A stretch of 10,893 bases of DNA from an uncultured Lachnospiraceae bacterium (lineage in GTDB: Bacteria; Bacillota; Clostridia; Lachnospirales; Lachnospiraceae): contig CACZNZ010000335.1 in the NCBI GenBank assembly GCA_902782625.1, positions 1-10,893 of the forward strand. Reading direction: 5' to 3'. Of this stretch, positions 1 to 10,893 are shown piece after piece; the stretch's first letter is position 1, and the number at the start of each line of letters is the position of its first letter. The notes under the pieces are model-generated. The model was not told the origin of the DNA. It saw nothing but the letters and a program-made list of their open reading frames with translations, and ran no database searches. The position numbers and the translations under genes were made by a program.

Positions 1-153
1 AGTATATTCCGGAGGAATCCTGTTGTAATGATGTATCCGGGCAGATATGAGATCAAAGAGAAAATGACGCTGCGGTTGTTTGAACGGCTGGACGATGACA
101 ATTATTACCGGGCATTCCCGCTGGTTGAAAGGAGAATTGGAAATGATTATTAA
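1..153 (+). CDS. brxB: BrxB (DUF1788), C-terminal 50 residues only
   Basis: The window opens inside a reading frame that runs from base 1 to a TAA at 151-153 and encodes 50 residues, with no start codon of its own in view. Visible text includes NPVVMMYPGRYE near the start and YYRAFPLVERR near the end. I recognise this as the typical tail of BrxB, the DUF1788 protein that lies immediately before brxC in BREX type 1 loci. BrxB is usually about 200 residues, so roughly three quarters lie outside the window. It is a small core BREX protein required for function in studied systems, with no known catalytic motif. Its last 11 bases overlap the start of brxC, which suggests translational coupling. 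The call rests on the tail sequence plus position; the position is very strong support. Confidence 0.85.
   Translation, partial: SIFRRNPVVMMYPGRYEIKEKMTLRLFERLDDDNYYRAFPLVERRIGNDY
130..135 (+). promoter_or_regulatory. Ribosome binding site of brxC, inside brxB
   Basis: AGGAGA at 130-135 lies 7 nt before the ATG at 143. It fixes the brxC start there rather than at the in-frame TTG at 80, which has no comparable site. It is embedded in the last codons of brxB, as expected for coupled translation. Confidence 0.8.
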
Positions 154-3675: not shown

Positions 3676-6600
3676 ATGGATAAACGAGTATTACAGACTT
3701 ATTCTACATGGGCAAAAGAAAACCTTGAGAACCAGATCGAGGTTTCTCTGAAGGCTCTTGGAATCAATAGTGATAAAGATATAAAAAATGCAAAGAAAGT
3801 GGGCGACGTCACCACGATCGAGGGTGATCCCACATCCTATCCTGCAGACCTGTATGGGAAGAGAGAATCCATTATCAATCTTATAAAACGAAACGGATAC
3901 CGGAATATCATCGAGGAATTTGCCTATACATGGTTTAACCGGTTTGTTGCCCTGAGGTTCATGGAAGTTCACGGCTTCCTGCCGCATGGCTTCCGCGTAC
4001 TGTCCAATCCGGCAGGGGGGATTGAGCCAGAGATCCTTAAGAATCTGAATCTGGTGAAGGATGATCTGAAGCTGGATATAAACCTCTGCAATGAATATAA
4101 ACAGCAGGGAAAAATAGAGGAACTATTTCGGCATGTACTGATCAAGCAGTGTAATGTACTGTCCGGGATTCTGCCGATGCTCTTCAGCTCTGATATGGGT
4201 TATTTGGAACTTCTTCTGCCGACTAATCTCTTAAAGGGTGAAACTGTCATTACCAGACTGAATGAGATTCCGGAAGAAGCCTTCATGGAGGATGTAGAAA
4301 TCATCGGCTGGATGTACCAGTTTTATATCTCTTCCAAGAAGGATGCGGTATACGCTTCCAAGAAAACAATCACAAAAGATACACTACCAGCGGTAACGCA
4401 GCTATTTACGCCGGACTGGATCGTGCGCTATATGGCGCAGAATTCTGTGGGGAGACTGTGGCTGGAAAGCTATCCGAATTCTTCACTCCGTTTTGAGATG
4501 AAATACTATGTCGAGGATGCAGAGCAGACTCCGGAAGTGCAGAAGAAGATCGAAGAAATCAAGTATAAAAATGTGAATCCGGAAGAGATCCGTATCATCG
4601 AGCCATGCTGCGGTTCCGGCCATATCCTTGTCTATGTATTTGATCTGCTCTACAAGATGTATGAAGAGCGGGGATACCAGAAGAGGGACATCCCGACATT
4701 GATCCTGAAGAATAACCTCGTGGGCCTTGACGTTGATAAGCGTGCGGCTCAGCTGGCATCCTTTTCGCTGATCATGAAGGCCAGGAGCGTAAATAACCGA
4801 TTCTTCAATGATCAGTATTATGAAACTCCACATGTTTATGAAATGCAGGATTCCAAGCTCTTAAAGGAACTGGAATACCGTAAGCAGCTGAAGGATTTGA
4901 ACCTTCTGAATGACGAAGAAACAAAACTGATCACCTATTTGGTTGACACATTTGAAAACGGAAAGACCATCGGATCATTGCTGAAAGTGAAGCCGATTGA
5001 TTTTGCACGTCTGAATGGAGCGTTGGATAAGATCTCAAAGAATGCAGTTTCGAACCTGTTCAATATCGAGTTCCTGAACATGGGAATAAAGCGGCTGAGG
5101 GAATTGTCTAATCAAGCCAAGGTTATGTCAGCAAAATATGATGTGATGATTACGAATCCTCCCTATATAAATCCGTCTTCTATGGAAACTGTAGTTAAAG
5201 AATATGCTATTAAGAACTATCCGGACAGTAAGACTGATATGTTTGCTATGTTTATGGAGACCGGATTTCTAAAACACAATGGTTTTACAGCAATGGTAAA
5301 CATGCATAGTTGGATGTTTTTAGCAAGCTATGAAAAGCTTAGAAATACTGTTGAAAACGCTAGAATGCTTGTTACGATGGCGCATTTGGGCACACGTGCA
5401 TTTGAGGCTATTGCTGGAGAGGTAGTTCAAACCACTTCATTTGTATTAAGAACCAATTATATACGCGGTTTTAAAGGAACATATTTCAGGTTGATAGATG
5501 CTTCAACACAACAAGAAAAAGAAAACAAATTTTTACTAAGAGATAATGAATTTGTAGTTAGCCAAGATGTATTTGCTAAGATACCGGGTAAACCAATTGC
5601 TTATTGGTTAAGCAATCAAGTAGTTAATAATTTTGATACGATGAAAACGGTAGGAGATTACGGGAGCGGGAGAATTGGATTAGTTACAGGCGATACAGGA
5701 AGATTTATACGTTTTTGGCATGAAGTATCTAAAAACAAAATTGGCTTTGGAATGAAGGATAACGACGAGTCAATTGCATCAAAAAAGAGATGGTTTCCTA
5801 TTCATAACGGCGGAGAATTCAGAAAATGGTATGGGAATCTGGATAGTGTAGTCAACTGGGAAAATGATGGATATTTAATGAAATTCGACAATTATATGGG
5901 GAAACGAGTTAGATCTCATAATTATAATGGCGAGTATGCTTTCCAGAGAGCTCTGAGTTGGACCACCATTTCGACAGGGGATTTTTGCTGCAGGTATGCT
6001 GAAAATGGATTTATTTTTGATACAGCAGGTCCTTTCTTTATTGCTAATAGGCAGCAGGACTTGTTATGCATTATGGCATTTCTGGAATCAAAAGTTGCAA
6101 GTATGTATCTACGAGTATTAAATCCGACCATTAATTATCCTCCGGGATATATTCAAAGCGTGCCTTTCAGTGAAAGGTGTTTATCTCCAGAAATAAATTG
6201 TCTTGCTGAAATTAATGTTGGAATATCTCGAAATGACTGGAATTCATTTGAAATATCATGGGATTATGACGAGCATCCCCTTGTAAGATGGTCAAAAGGT
6301 TTATGGGATGCGACCGCTATAGGCGCGACAATGCATCATTATTACGGTGGACATCCTGAGGTAAAATCACCTGTTGAACTTTGCTTTATGTTATGGCAAG
6401 GGGAGTGCAAAGAACGTTTTGATAATCTGAAGGCTAACGAGGAAGAACTTAACCGAATCTTTATTGACATCTATGGCCTTCAGGATGAATTGACACCAGA
6501 GGTAGAGGATAAGGATGTGACCGTTCGTCTTGCTGATAAAGAGCGTGATATCCGTTCCCTAATTTCCTATCTTGTCGGTGTTGCTATGGGCAGATACTCG

Positions 6601-7296
6601 CTTGATGTTCCCGGTCTTGCCTACGCTGGCGGCGATTGGGATGCATCGAAGTATGTTACCTATCAACCGGACGATGATGGCATTATTCCGATTTACAACG
6701 AAATCGGCATGGAAGACGGACTCACCACAGTGTTGATTCAACTTATAAAGCAGATCTACGGTGAGGACACCTACAGGCAGAATATCGACTTTATTGCAGA
6801 AGCCCTTGGCAAGAATTCTAACGAATCCTCAGAGGAAACACTGAATCGTTATCTGAATGACGGCTTCTACGCAGATCATCTGAAGATCTATCAGAAGAGA
6901 CCGATCTACTGGCTCTTTACCAGTGGAAAAAAGGCTGGCTTCAAGTGCCTGATCTATATGCATAGGTACAATGAAGACACACTTGCCCGGATCAATGGTA
7001 AGTACTTCCTGCCAGAATCCACCCGGAAGAAGAACGAGCTGGATGAATTGAACGGCAGGATCGCGCATGCGGAAGGACGTGATAAGCTGAAGCTCGAAAA
7101 GCAGCGTCAGAATCTGGCTGCGGCATATAACGAGGCTGTTGAATACGGACAGATTCTGGATCACATGGCGAACCAATATATCTCCATTGATTTGGATGAT
7201 GGCGTGAAGGTGAACTATGCAAAATTCCAGGGCGTTGAAATTGTAACAGACAGTGGAACCAAGGTTAAAAAAGACCTGCTTTCCCCGTTGAAATAA
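3676..7296 (+). CDS. pglX: BREX-1 adenine-specific DNA methyltransferase PglX
   Basis: The gene encodes an N6-adenine DNA methyltransferase of 1206 residues, the usual size for type 1 PglX. It transfers a methyl group from S-adenosylmethionine to an adenine in an asymmetric motif, marking host DNA as self. The SAM-binding motif I is EPCCGSGHI at residues 309-317. The catalytic motif IV is NPPY at 494-497. The N-terminal 300 residues (including EFAYTWFNRFVALRFMEVHG) match the family's helical front part. Residues from about 1115 to 1160 are charged and probably coiled coil. The ATG at 3676 is preceded by AAGGAG at 3663-3668 (7 nt spacer), which overlaps the brxC stop. Odd points: bases from about 5110 to 6420 (residues about 478-915) are AT-richer than the flanks, as if the recognition part had been exchanged, and a run of six G occurs at 4015-4020. 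The target motif cannot be read from sequence alone. The frame is open throughout. Confidence 0.96.
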   Translation: MDKRVLQTYSTWAKENLENQIEVSLKALGINSDKDIKNAKKVGDVTTIEGDPTSYPADLYGKRESIINLIKRNGYRNIIEEFAYTWFNRFVALRFMEVHGFLPHGFRVLSNPAGGIEPEILKNLNLVKDDLKLDINLCNEYKQQGKIEELFRHVLIKQCNVLSGILPMLFSSDMGYLELLLPTNLLKGETVITRLNEIPEEAFMEDVEIIGWMYQFYISSKKDAVYASKKTITKDTLPAVTQLFTPDWIVRYMAQNSVGRLWLESYPNSSLRFEMKYYVEDAEQTPEVQKKIEEIKYKNVNPEEIRIIEPCCGSGHILVYVFDLLYKMYEERGYQKRDIPTLILKNNLVGLDVDKRAAQLASFSLIMKARSVNNRFFNDQYYETPHVYEMQDSKLLKELEYRKQLKDLNLLNDEETKLITYLVDTFENGKTIGSLLKVKPIDFARLNGALDKISKNAVSNLFNIEFLNMGIKRLRELSNQAKVMSAKYDVMITNPPYINPSSMETVVKEYAIKNYPDSKTDMFAMFMETGFLKHNGFTAMVNMHSWMFLASYEKLRNTVENARMLVTMAHLGTRAFEAIAGEVVQTTSFVLRTNYIRGFKGTYFRLIDASTQQEKENKFLLRDNEFVVSQDVFAKIPGKPIAYWLSNQVVNNFDTMKTVGDYGSGRIGLVTGDTGRFIRFWHEVSKNKIGFGMKDNDESIASKKRWFPIHNGGEFRKWYGNLDSVVNWENDGYLMKFDNYMGKRVRSHNYNGEYAFQRALSWTTISTGDFCCRYAENGFIFDTAGPFFIANRQQDLLCIMAFLESKVASMYLRVLNPTINYPPGYIQSVPFSERCLSPEINCLAEINVGISRNDWNSFEISWDYDEHPLVRWSKGLWDATAIGATMHHYYGGHPEVKSPVELCFMLWQGECKERFDNLKANEEELNRIFIDIYGLQDELTPEVEDKDVTVRLADKERDIRSLISYLVGVAMGRYSLDVPGLAYAGGDWDASKYVTYQPDDDGIIPIYNEIGMEDGLTTVLIQLIKQIYGEDTYRQNIDFIAEALGKNSNESSEETLNRYLNDGFYADHLKIYQKRPIYWLFTSGKKAGFKCLIYMHRYNEDTLARINGKYFLPESTRKKNELDELNGRIAHAEGRDKLKLEKQRQNLAAAYNEAVEYGQILDHMANQYISIDLDDGVKVNYAKFQGVEIVTDSGTKVKKDLLSPLK
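5110..6420 (+). other. AT-rich mosaic segment in pglX (putative target-recognition region)
   Basis: Composition shifts inside the open pglX frame. Hand counts of 60-base lines give 33% GC at 5461-5520, 27% at 5521-5580, 32% at 5581-5640 and 32% at 6181-6240. The same counts give 48% at 4561-4620 and 57% at 7021-7080, also in pglX, and 52% at 8581-8640 in pglZ. Codons change too, towards TTA, ATA, GTA, AAA and AAT. The shift starts just around the NPPY motif and ends before residue about 920, which is where sequence-specificity domains lie in this class of methyltransferase. Boundaries are approximate. I interpret it as an imported specificity module; relaxed codon selection in a fast-evolving domain is an alternative. 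Confidence 0.6.
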
Positions 7297-7309
7297 TCGG
7301 AGGTAGCAT

Positions 7310-9838
7310 ATGGCAAGTATAGATTATCAGGAGGCTAGAAAAGAGATTGTTAGGCTGTTCGGTCAAAAGCAGGCCAGCGGCCGCAAGATTCTTTTTTGGT
7401 ATGATCCCCCGGCAAATTTCAAAGAAGATATCGAGGGCGACAGCTATGACTGCTGTAAGGTGTTGTTTTGCGATAAGAATGAGTTTGCCATTAAGAAGAC
7501 AATAGAACACGACGATACCACATCTGATTATCTGGTGTATATTCCATCGGAAAAACCGGCAGACAATGAAAACTGGCTGCTGGATATATTGATGTATAGC
7601 GAAGAATATTATGCAGATACCGTGGCTCTCACCATGCGTCGCATGAATCTGACAAATACGGATCTTCGCCGTGTGATCGAGTGGCATTCCAAGTTCTTCG
7701 ATGCTGAAAGTAGGACGAAGAGACTGTCCAATTATGTGACAGTAAATGATGAGATGAAGCCGGCGGATCTGCGCATGGCGATGATGTGTGTGCTTACCAG
7801 GGCTTCTTCCAGATCTATCGAGAGCGTACTGACAGAGTTGGTATTCGATAATTCCGAATCCAGTAAATATAAAGATCTTAAAAAATTCGGCTTTGAGGAA
7901 TCTCTCTGGGATGAGATCTGCCGGTATTACAACTATGAGGGCGATCAGAAAATCGAAACACTGATCAAGCGATTTATGTTTACGGCGCTTCTGGAACAGA
8001 AGGCGGAGTTTGATACGTTGCCATCATTCTACGATCAATATAAGATCAAAGGCCCAGGACAGATGGATGCTAAGTTCTTCATAGACAAGATCAAGGCGGA
8101 TAAGCGATATGAATCCCTTCAGCTGGATGTGGCTACGGATCTGAAGATCGAGGGACTGCTTGTATCAAGGGATATCACCTGCGTGCAGACGGCAGATATC
8201 TTCGAATGCATTGATATCGATATTATAAAGAAGATATCGGTCAGCCTTGTGAATGGCAGCCTAGATTACAGTACCTTTGAGCGTGTGATTTCAGATCGTC
8301 TGAATTCCATGTGGTACGAGGCACATAGCCAGGAATATGCCATCTTAAGTTCTGTAATGGCGTTTTATAAGAAACTGGAAACACCAATCTCTTCAGGACT
8401 TCTGGCAACTGATTATGTTCAAAATTATACAGAAAGCTACTATCTGGTAGATACCTATTACCGTCGGATCTGCGCTAACTTCAATCAGCTGGAGAACCCG
8501 ATTTCCGAGATGGAAGATCTGTTGCGCATGGTGGAAGCAGCATATCAGAGCAAGTTCCTGGATCCGCTGGGCAAGGCATTCAGTGATGCATTAAAAGAGC
8601 AGGGCAACTGGGATTTCCCGGGGCTCAAGATGACACGGAATTTCTATCAGGAAGTCCAGAATAAGAATTATAAGAAATGCTTTGTTATCATTTCCGATGG
8701 CTTACGCTATGAGATCGGAAGGGAATTGTATGAGAAGATGAAGACGGATACGGTGCTGAAGGGAAATGAAGAGATCAAATTTGCCATCTCCCCACTGCCT
8801 TCAGAAACACGGTTCGGTATGGCTTCACTGCTTCCGCATCGGATCATGGCATATGCAAGCAAGCTGGTTACAGTAGATGATCAGTCTACGGACAGCACTG
8901 CAGCAAGGGATGCAGTCCTGAAGAATAAAAAGCCTTCTTATGCAGCAATCCAGTACAAGGATATCAATAAGATGTCCCGTAATGAACTACGTACCTATAT
9001 GGCGGATAAATCTTTGGTGTATATCTATCACAACGTTATAGATAATGCCGGTGAGCATAATGAAAGCAAGGTTTTTGATGTAGCTCAGACTGCCGTGGAT
9101 GAGATCCTGACGCTGATCCGGAAACTGTACAACAATCTTCAGATATCCAATTTCTATGTGACGGCAGACCACGGATTCCTGTACAGACGAAATGAAGTAG
9201 AAGAATCACAGAAGTACAGCAATGTTGTGTCACTGCATCCGACGGAAGCTTCCAAGCGTTTTGTCCTGACAGATGACAAGTCGCTGGAGATCCCGTATAC
9301 CGTTGAATTTACGCTGGAGAATGTTTCGGATGGAAAATATAAGGTCATTTCGCCTTATGGATATGATCTGTTCAAGACTCAGGGCGGCGGACTTCAGTAT
9401 GTACATGGTGGGGCTTCCCTGCAGGAAATCATCGTTCCGGTCATCCATCTGGGAGAACTGCGGGCTGCCGGAAATAAGGAAGCTGTTGCGCCGGTAGGCG
9501 TTCGCCTTAAGAGCATTACCAGAAAGATTACGAACCGAAGCTTCACGCTGGAATTTGAACAGTATGAGAAGGTGGAGGAACGCAAGCAGGCCATTACCTG
9601 TGAGACGTATCTGGTAGATGAGGATGGTAATAAGGTGTCTGGCGAATACCGCTTTGTGGCTGCATCCGAAAGTGACGATGTGGATGCAAGAAGCACGAAG
9701 ATCCGGTTCAATCTCATGAATATCGAGTTTGACCGCAGCAAGAGGTATTACCTGATTTTGAAGAATATCGCAAAGCCGGATGAATATATAGAACGGGAGC
9801 AGTTTACGATAGACATCCTGCAGTTCAAGATGTTCTAA
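7310..9838 (+). CDS. pglZ: BREX-1 alkaline-phosphatase-superfamily protein PglZ
   Basis: The gene encodes an 842-residue protein, the normal size for type 1 PglZ. The PglZ domain lies in the second half. A metal-site-type strand CFVIISDGLRYE holds Asp463 and Arg466-Tyr467-Glu468. Next comes PLPSETRFGMASLLP, with Thr500 in the position expected for a superfamily nucleophile. A second metal-site motif, YVTADHGFLYRR, has Asp620 and His621. The motif HGGASLQEIIVP further on is also typical of PglZ. The first half is mostly helical with no catalytic motif that I can name. The C-terminal part from about residue 720 looks like a beta-rich domain. PglZ is a core BREX component needed for methylation and defence; its exact reaction is not settled, although metal-dependent phosphodiesterase or nuclease activity is expected from the fold. 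GGAGG at 7299-7303 sits 6 nt before the ATG, and the gap from pglX is 13 nt. The motifs appear intact. Confidence 0.95.
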   Translation: MASIDYQEARKEIVRLFGQKQASGRKILFWYDPPANFKEDIEGDSYDCCKVLFCDKNEFAIKKTIEHDDTTSDYLVYIPSEKPADNENWLLDILMYSEEYYADTVALTMRRMNLTNTDLRRVIEWHSKFFDAESRTKRLSNYVTVNDEMKPADLRMAMMCVLTRASSRSIESVLTELVFDNSESSKYKDLKKFGFEESLWDEICRYYNYEGDQKIETLIKRFMFTALLEQKAEFDTLPSFYDQYKIKGPGQMDAKFFIDKIKADKRYESLQLDVATDLKIEGLLVSRDITCVQTADIFECIDIDIIKKISVSLVNGSLDYSTFERVISDRLNSMWYEAHSQEYAILSSVMAFYKKLETPISSGLLATDYVQNYTESYYLVDTYYRRICANFNQLENPISEMEDLLRMVEAAYQSKFLDPLGKAFSDALKEQGNWDFPGLKMTRNFYQEVQNKNYKKCFVIISDGLRYEIGRELYEKMKTDTVLKGNEEIKFAISPLPSETRFGMASLLPHRIMAYASKLVTVDDQSTDSTAARDAVLKNKKPSYAAIQYKDINKMSRNELRTYMADKSLVYIYHNVIDNAGEHNESKVFDVAQTAVDEILTLIRKLYNNLQISNFYVTADHGFLYRRNEVEESQKYSNVVSLHPTEASKRFVLTDDKSLEIPYTVEFTLENVSDGKYKVISPYGYDLFKTQGGGLQYVHGGASLQEIIVPVIHLGELRAAGNKEAVAPVGVRLKSITRKITNRSFTLEFEQYEKVEERKQAITCETYLVDEDGNKVSGEYRFVAASESDDVDARSTKIRFNLMNIEFDRSKRYYLILKNIAKPDEYIEREQFTIDILQFKMF

Positions 9839-9853
9839 AGGAGGCATAGGTTC

Positions 9854-10893
9854 ATGGATCAATTAGATAAAAAAGTGTTTGAGGTCTTTTCGGGACGTGT
9901 GGTTCCAAAAGGCGCCACAAAGAAGATCAAGGACAGTGCGAATGTGCCTACTTACGTGCTGGAGTATCTTCTGGGCAACTATTGTACATCCGACGATGAG
10001 AGCGAAGTGGAAGCCGGGATTGAGCAGGTGAAGCGAATTCTTTCCGATAATTACGTGCGTCCGGATGAGGCCGAGCAGATCAAAGCTAGGATTAAGGAAG
10101 AAGGAACCCATACAGTCATTGACAAGATTAGCGTCAAGCTGAATGAGCGCACGGATCAGTATGAGGCAGATTTTCTCTTCCTGGGGATAAAAGGGATTTA
10201 CGTGCATCCGAAATACATCCGCTCCTATGAGAAGCTTCTGGCAGGCGGTATCTGGTGCATCGTTGATCTGACGTATTTTTACAACGAGGATGAAAAGAAA
10301 AACAGCCCGTTCGTTATCAATGAGATTACTCCAATACAGATGCCGAATCTGGATAAGAATGAAATCATTGAAGCCAGAAGTCAGTTCACGAAAGAAGAGT
10401 GGATAGATCTGCTGCTACGTTCCTGTGGCATGGAGCCGACACAGTTTGATTACCGTGTGAAGTGGCATCTGCTGACAAGACTGGTTCCGTTGGTAGAGAA
10501 CAATGTTAATATTTGCGAATTAGGTCCGAGAGGAACCGGTAAGTCGCACATCTAGAAAGAACTATCACCGAATTCTATTCTGATCTCCGGTGGACAGACT
10601 ACGGTTGCCAACCTTTTCTATAACATGGGAAGGCGGCAGGTTGGTCTTGTCGGACTTTGGGATGTGGTTGCTTTTGATGAGGTTGCAGGTATCAATTTCA
10701 AGGATAAGGACGGCGTTCAGATCATGAAGGACTATATGGCTTCCGGATCCTTTGCAAGAGGTAAGGATGCCATTCAGGCGAACGCTTCCATGGTATTTGT
10801 CGGTAATATCAATCAGAGTGTGGATTTTCTGCTGAAGACATCTCATCTGTTTGAGCCATTCCCGGATGCCATGATTGACAGCGCCTTCTTTGA
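9854..10893 (+). pseudogene. brxL: BREX-1 Lon protease-like AAA+ protein BrxL, interrupted by an in-frame TAG and cut by the window end
   Basis: Translation from the ATG at 9854 gives 233 residues, MDQLDKKVFEVFSGRVVPKG onward, matching the BrxL N-terminal domain and ending in the Walker A motif GPRGTGKS (residues 224-231) followed by HI and a TAG at 10553-10555. The same frame then continues open for 112 codons to the window edge. It begins KELSPNSILISGGQTTVANL and carries a Walker B strand DVVAFDE (Asp275-Glu276, numbering the stop as 234) and a sensor-like VFVGNIN (Asn318). All of this is recognisable BrxL AAA+ sequence. BrxL is normally about 680 residues with a C-terminal Lon-like domain; that end lies beyond the window. 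The family member with a known structure forms a ring-shaped DNA-binding AAA+ assembly and acts as the restriction factor. A 233-residue product would lack Walker B and could not hydrolyse ATP. AAAGGAGG at 9837-9844 overlaps the pglZ stop, 9 nt before the ATG. Readthrough or a sequencing error would restore the protein. Confidence 0.88.
10553..10555 (+). other. In-frame amber codon in brxL
   Basis: The codon after GKSHI is TAG, where BrxL relatives as I remember them have Tyr (GKSHxYKE). TAT or TAC to TAG is one base change. Frame and similarity are preserved on both sides, so this is a substitution rather than an indel. The change sits in TCTAGA at 10551-10556. Confidence 0.85.

Follow-up and report, generated by a model that had tools for sequence, protein, structure and literature searches.

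A probable nonsense mutation just after the Walker A motif of brxL in a type 1 BREX operon from a Lachnospiraceae draft genome

INTRODUCTION

BrxL, the effector of type 1 BREX phage defense, has been characterized as an AAA+ protein that forms rings and binds DNA in an ATP-dependent manner. According to the same report, disrupting the ATPase site cuts restriction as much as deleting the gene, and the substitution E280Q abolishes restriction (PMC10164562). Removal of brxL is likewise reported to abolish or reduce restriction, with methylation almost or fully kept, both in Escherichia coli HS (PMC6326788) and in Acinetobacter (PMC9122589). In the one-plasmid context of E. coli HS, other brx genes acquired frame-shifting deletions once brxL was deleted, and E. 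coli is reported to suffer toxicity when brxL is expressed by itself (PMC6326788). For Salmonella BREX, published statements disagree: the introduction of PMC12839542 says that phage inhibition does not depend on BrxL, whereas according to PMC9009780 it is required for restriction. In the portions of the literature searched, we found no description of a nonsense allele of brxL occurring in nature. Here, we describe a BREX operon from a Lachnospiraceae genome in which brxL is interrupted by a single stop codon, and we weigh what that codon may mean.

RESULTS AND DISCUSSION

The operon is a type 1 BREX locus. The window, meaning the whole stretch of DNA analyzed, is an entire contig (C335) of 10,893 bases from a 639-contig draft genome (2.84 Mb) that is 76.2% complete and 5.16% contaminated. 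PADLOC and Pfam find brxC, pglX, pglZ, and brxL together, and the gene order is brxB-brxC-pglX-pglZ-brxL (Table 1). The contig starts inside the gene preceding brxC, and the name brxB is taken from the original prediction and from gene order, the frame itself having only been read. As had been claimed, brxC, pglX, and pglZ are open to a TAA without an internal stop, and the short brxB tail also ends in TAA. The end of brxB overlaps the start of brxC by 11 bases (143 to 153), which suggests coupled translation.

Table 1. Features of the window, with positions counted from its first base
Feature	Position	Strand	Evidence
brxB 3' end, 50 codons, stop TAA at 151-153	1..153	+	frame read
brxC, intact, 1,173 aa	143..3664	+	PADLOC BrxC (E = 0); Pfam BREX_BrxC domains; no internal stop
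pglX methyltransferase, intact, 1,206 aa	3676..7296	+	PADLOC PglX (E = 0); Pfam Eco57I
pglZ, intact, 842 aa	7310..9838	+	PADLOC PglZ (5e-209); Pfam PglZ
brxL, interrupted, 3' part lost to contig end	9854..10893	+	PADLOC BrxL PDLC02506, both pieces
Walker A motif GPRGTGKS	10523..10546	+	translation
TCTAGA, sole one in window	10551..10556	.	sequence
In-frame TAG at Tyr/Phe position	10553..10555	+	sequence, Pfam, relatives
Next in-frame ATG past stop; restart product lacks Walker A	10625..10627	+	sequence
Walker B Glu codon past stop, aligned to 8emc residue 280	10679..10681	+	alignment, position hand-counted

One codon interrupts brxL. The frame that opens at the brxL ATG runs for 233 residues to GPRGTGKSHI, in which we take GPRGTGKS to be the Walker A motif, and meets a TAG two codons past that motif, within the BrxL ATPase domain. 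It then continues unchanged for 112 residues to the window end. The gene is visible to about residue 346 (1,040 bases), and roughly its last half, where a C-terminal Lon-like or HKD domain would be expected, is unseen because the contig stops. Between them the two pieces carry the BrxL_N (PF20442) and BrxL AAA+ (PF13337) domains, and they match positions 1 to 81 and 83 to 194 of the 313-position Pfam BrxL_ATPase profile. The PADLOC BrxL profile is matched at 6 to 237 and 239 to 351 (E values of 1.3e-107 and 2.9e-65), and the solved BrxL structure 8emc at residues 8 to 237 and 239 to 350. Thus, a stop replaces exactly one position and the visible remainder is undisturbed, as the original prediction had read from the letters. 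With BrxL matches of this strength on either side of the TAG, the shared frame is not a chance effect. The window gene therefore resembles the type 1 BREX BrxL of 8emc and 8emh along the length of both pieces but differs in being interrupted after residue 233 and in having its last half out of view. As predicted, the TAG also makes a TCTAGA sequence, which occurs once in the window. No second brxL was found in the incomplete genome, the sole other match, on contig C10, being of a weak, Lon-like kind.

No relative carries a stop at this position. A scan of a collection of species genomes gave 28 brxL loci, the closest three of which are 97 to 98% identical to the window in the N piece. These three, L058, L059, and L060 (two Lachnospiraceae records and one Eubacteriales record), resemble the window at 97 to 98% protein identity in the C piece as well, but they have no stop, and their DNA is 83 to 85% identical over the visible brxL. 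More broadly, the site is covered in 81 of 86 relative loci (all but L022, L023, L085, L133, and L134), which collapse to 68 distinct sequences with Tyr in 58, Phe in 10, and a stop in none. Among 23 other genomes of the genus, DNA of the pglZ-brxL region was matched in three at 67 to 87% identity over 39 to 950 bases, taking at most the best 12 candidates per genome, and so no near strain is among them. Phage or plasmid carriage was considered and set aside, as viral_contigs held no close brxL relative and plasmid and phage DNA matched at only 60 to 90% identity over at most 80% of the query. Separately, pglX is unevenly conserved across loci L058 to L068. Residues about 900 to 1206 are 72 to 87% identical in L058 and L063 to L068, and residues about 625 to 870 are only 34 to 41% identical in L060, L063, L064, and L066, a pattern that points to swapped recognition modules.

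Translation might pass through the TAG, either by an amber suppressor tRNA or because the host or a mobile element is recoded, such that full-length BrxL is restored. The gene does look fully constrained, in keeping with readthrough. The genome, however, encodes an intact RF1, its best PylS candidate scored 20 bits against a cutoff of 178, and brxC, pglX, and pglZ contain no internal TAG. Among 80 stop-to-stop frames of at least 150 codons on 15 of the genome's own contigs (5 masked), 11 terminate in TAG. A TAG-recoded genome would be expected to lack RF1 or to have multiple TAG codons inside genes where residues are conserved, and neither sign was found, in agreement with the original prediction that recoding is not genome-wide. 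A suppressor, which that prediction had offered as one possibility, did not appear either. Of 19 tRNA matches, ARAGORN names 17, none with a CUA anticodon, and the two weaker matches are a tRNA at a contig end that reads by eye as tRNA-Leu and one left unnamed; this negative weighs little, as even a tRNA-Tyr is missing from the set recovered from this incomplete genome. Finally, RNA structure after the stop did not exceed that of shuffled sequences (z = -1.09). We consider readthrough very improbable.

The stop could instead be a reversible off state, also raised originally, and phase variation is indeed reported for the BREX gene pglX/brxX (PMC9122589, PMC6326788). Nothing at the lesion resembles a switch. 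No direct or inverted repeat of at least 16 bases, the lengths searched, lies in 9800 to 10893, no homopolymer run is seen by eye at the site, and no repeat tract, inversion, or recombination site was found there. Moreover, a point substitution offers no fast way back. Programmed switching of brxL is thus highly unlikely.

In a third reading, the 233-residue piece would still work as a short protein that binds DNA or regulates, whether or not a C piece is made by restart. The stop falls after the entire BrxL_N domain, and overexpression of a 3' brxL fragment is reported to alter transcription globally in Salmonella (PMC9009780). None of the 68 distinct relatives, however, is cut at the same place, and no common stop position was seen among other broken brxL genes, whose interruptions lie near 147, 457, 516, and 518, among other places. 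Nor does the restart ATG have a clear ribosome site by eye, and a simple scan of 9700 to 10893 gave no promoter for internal restart. We give a working short product very little credence.

The TAG could also be an artifact. It may stem from an error in base calling or in the consensus, or the assembler may have fixed an allele of a minority strain close to where a thin contig ends. The draft is fragmented, the contig breaks 338 bases past the stop, and brxL lacks other decay, as would be the case after a base error. Against this, nonsense errors are not common in the draft. When 53 readable contigs of the genome (345 kb, including the window; another 22 of the 75 contigs taken were masked) were compared with 800 kb of another genome of the same genus, 76 regions matched and 35 of them (36.7 kb) passed a cutoff of at least 50% identity and at least 100 codons; not one of the 35 contained an internal stop, and neither did brxC, pglX, or pglZ. 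In addition, only 123 of the 3,105 possible single-base changes in the stretch would create a stop. On balance, an artifact seems less likely than a real allele, though a single error is a serious possibility.

The rest of the visible brxL shows no damage. In comparisons with the three closest copies, dN ranges from 0.008 to 0.020 and dS from 0.9 to 2.5 (saturated in one of six comparisons), alike before and after the stop, and dN/dS is 0.007 to 0.015 on both sides in the five of six comparisons that could be computed. The window gene never departs from columns invariant in its 11 closest relatives, which themselves depart 0 to 5 times, and it has one private residue relative to the three closest copies, Tyr to Phe. 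Its terminal branch measures 0.45 at third positions and 0.0027 at first plus second positions, such that at face value at most 2 to 3% of the branch was unconstrained; with synonymous sites close to saturated and a third-position branch of 0.0 for the post-stop part alone, these figures can be used only to say that the lesion is recent or not real. The original prediction, that the stop would be recent if real, fits the visible gene. Dating the loss by synonymous change was tried and abandoned, as the estimate is near saturation and inconsistent between the parts of brxL.

We favor the reading that the stop in brxL of this type 1 BREX operon is probably a genuine nonsense mutation of recent origin, leaving modification predicted on and restriction predicted off. 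Under this reading, RF1 would end translation at the TAG and release a 233-residue peptide. This peptide would keep the N domain and Walker A; missing from it would be Walker B, the remainder of the AAA+ domain, and the C-terminal domain. No BrxL ATPase would then be made. As the other BREX genes are open, host DNA methylation should continue, and by analogy to the laboratory deletions, phage restriction would be lost or much reduced. The window would thus share its predicted state with the brxL deletions of E. coli HS and Acinetobacter, methylation kept and restriction lost or reduced, but it differs from them in being a natural single-codon lesion whose phenotype is a prediction. Several points count against this reading. 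The assembly is a fragmented draft, the lack of decay is equally expected of a base error, and the near saturation of synonymous sites makes the dating rough. The visible neighbors are intact, whereas brxL deletion in the one-plasmid context of E. coli HS led to frameshifts in other brx genes, and the need for BrxL in Salmonella BREX is disputed. In support, brxL is interrupted often enough elsewhere (see below) that real losses are to be expected. If real, a natural BREX locus in which only the effector is broken would be the wild version of a restriction-off, modification-on state made in the laboratory. It would hint that BrxL is often unneeded or that maintaining it carries a cost, in line with the toxicity reported for brxL expressed alone in E. 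coli (PMC6326788). One nonsense codon in a draft genome, however, settles nothing alone.

Broken brxL is fairly common in the order. We surveyed 392 genomes, scored the best two candidates in each, and counted those of at least 140 bits against the BrxL profile. Fifteen loci of a short BrxL kind were left out (G301, G221, G098, G336, G238, G211, G395, G460, G189, G335, G370, G137, G420, G350, and G342, the last assigned by its low score per residue), as were weaker fragments, some with stops (G335, G173, G298, and G431). With the best two candidates per genome, there were 37 long-type loci including the window, and brxL was interrupted in 6 of the other 36: by a TAA near 516 in G116, by a TAA near 457 at a contig end in G338, by one frameshift in G428, by frameshifts in G321 and G355, which belong to the same genus, and by an internal deletion in the C4 copy of G365, whose other copy is intact. 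G272 and a C-terminal fragment in G139 were ambiguous and were scored as not interrupted. Two further cases lie among the 28 loci of the species-genome collection, a frameshift near 518 in L072 and, at L085:1639-1842, a brxL cut after residue 64 and followed by unrelated sequence. The original prediction had treated the interruption as remarkable, and the survey makes it ordinary, with no sign of a new mechanism.

Loss of the effector might be preferential, in that brxL would be lost repeatedly while the modification genes are kept, yielding modification-only BREX, with the window as a fresh case of the first step. Outside the window, pglZ was broken in 1 to 3 of 40 loci (G272, and G227 and G355, which lack internal or N-terminal parts), and brxC was broken in 3 of 39 (G268 by a TAG, G220 by a frameshift, and G040, in which the second half is missing and brxL is intact). 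By Fisher tests, the 6 of 36 for brxL compares with 1 of 40 for pglZ at P = 0.05, with 3 of 39 for brxC at P = 0.30, and with pglZ and brxC pooled (4 to 6 of 79) at P = 0.07 to 0.19; against 4 of 79, P is 0.13 when the two brxL cases from one genus are counted as a single event. The pooled values mean that the counts do not show preferential loss of brxL, and we regard the order-wide reading as improbable. In G321, G428, and G365, the pglZ beside the broken brxL is whole. The G116 copy is open as far as the contig end that truncates it, and the G355 copy lacks its N-terminal part; in L072 and L085, the matched part of pglZ has no stop.

We note that one locus shows the opposite arrangement. 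In L240 (G040:C21, about 5700 to 7832), brxC is truncated at roughly residue 596 and continues into a small remnant of pglX, and pglZ and brxL are open, making it a BREX locus with modification genes lost and brxL kept. Moreover, stops or partial second copies of pglX are frequent in the order. In G440, G461, G391, G445, and G126, a partial second pglX adjoins a full pglX or stands in series with it, as if parts recombine, and the stops listed for pglX may be the ends of such partial genes.
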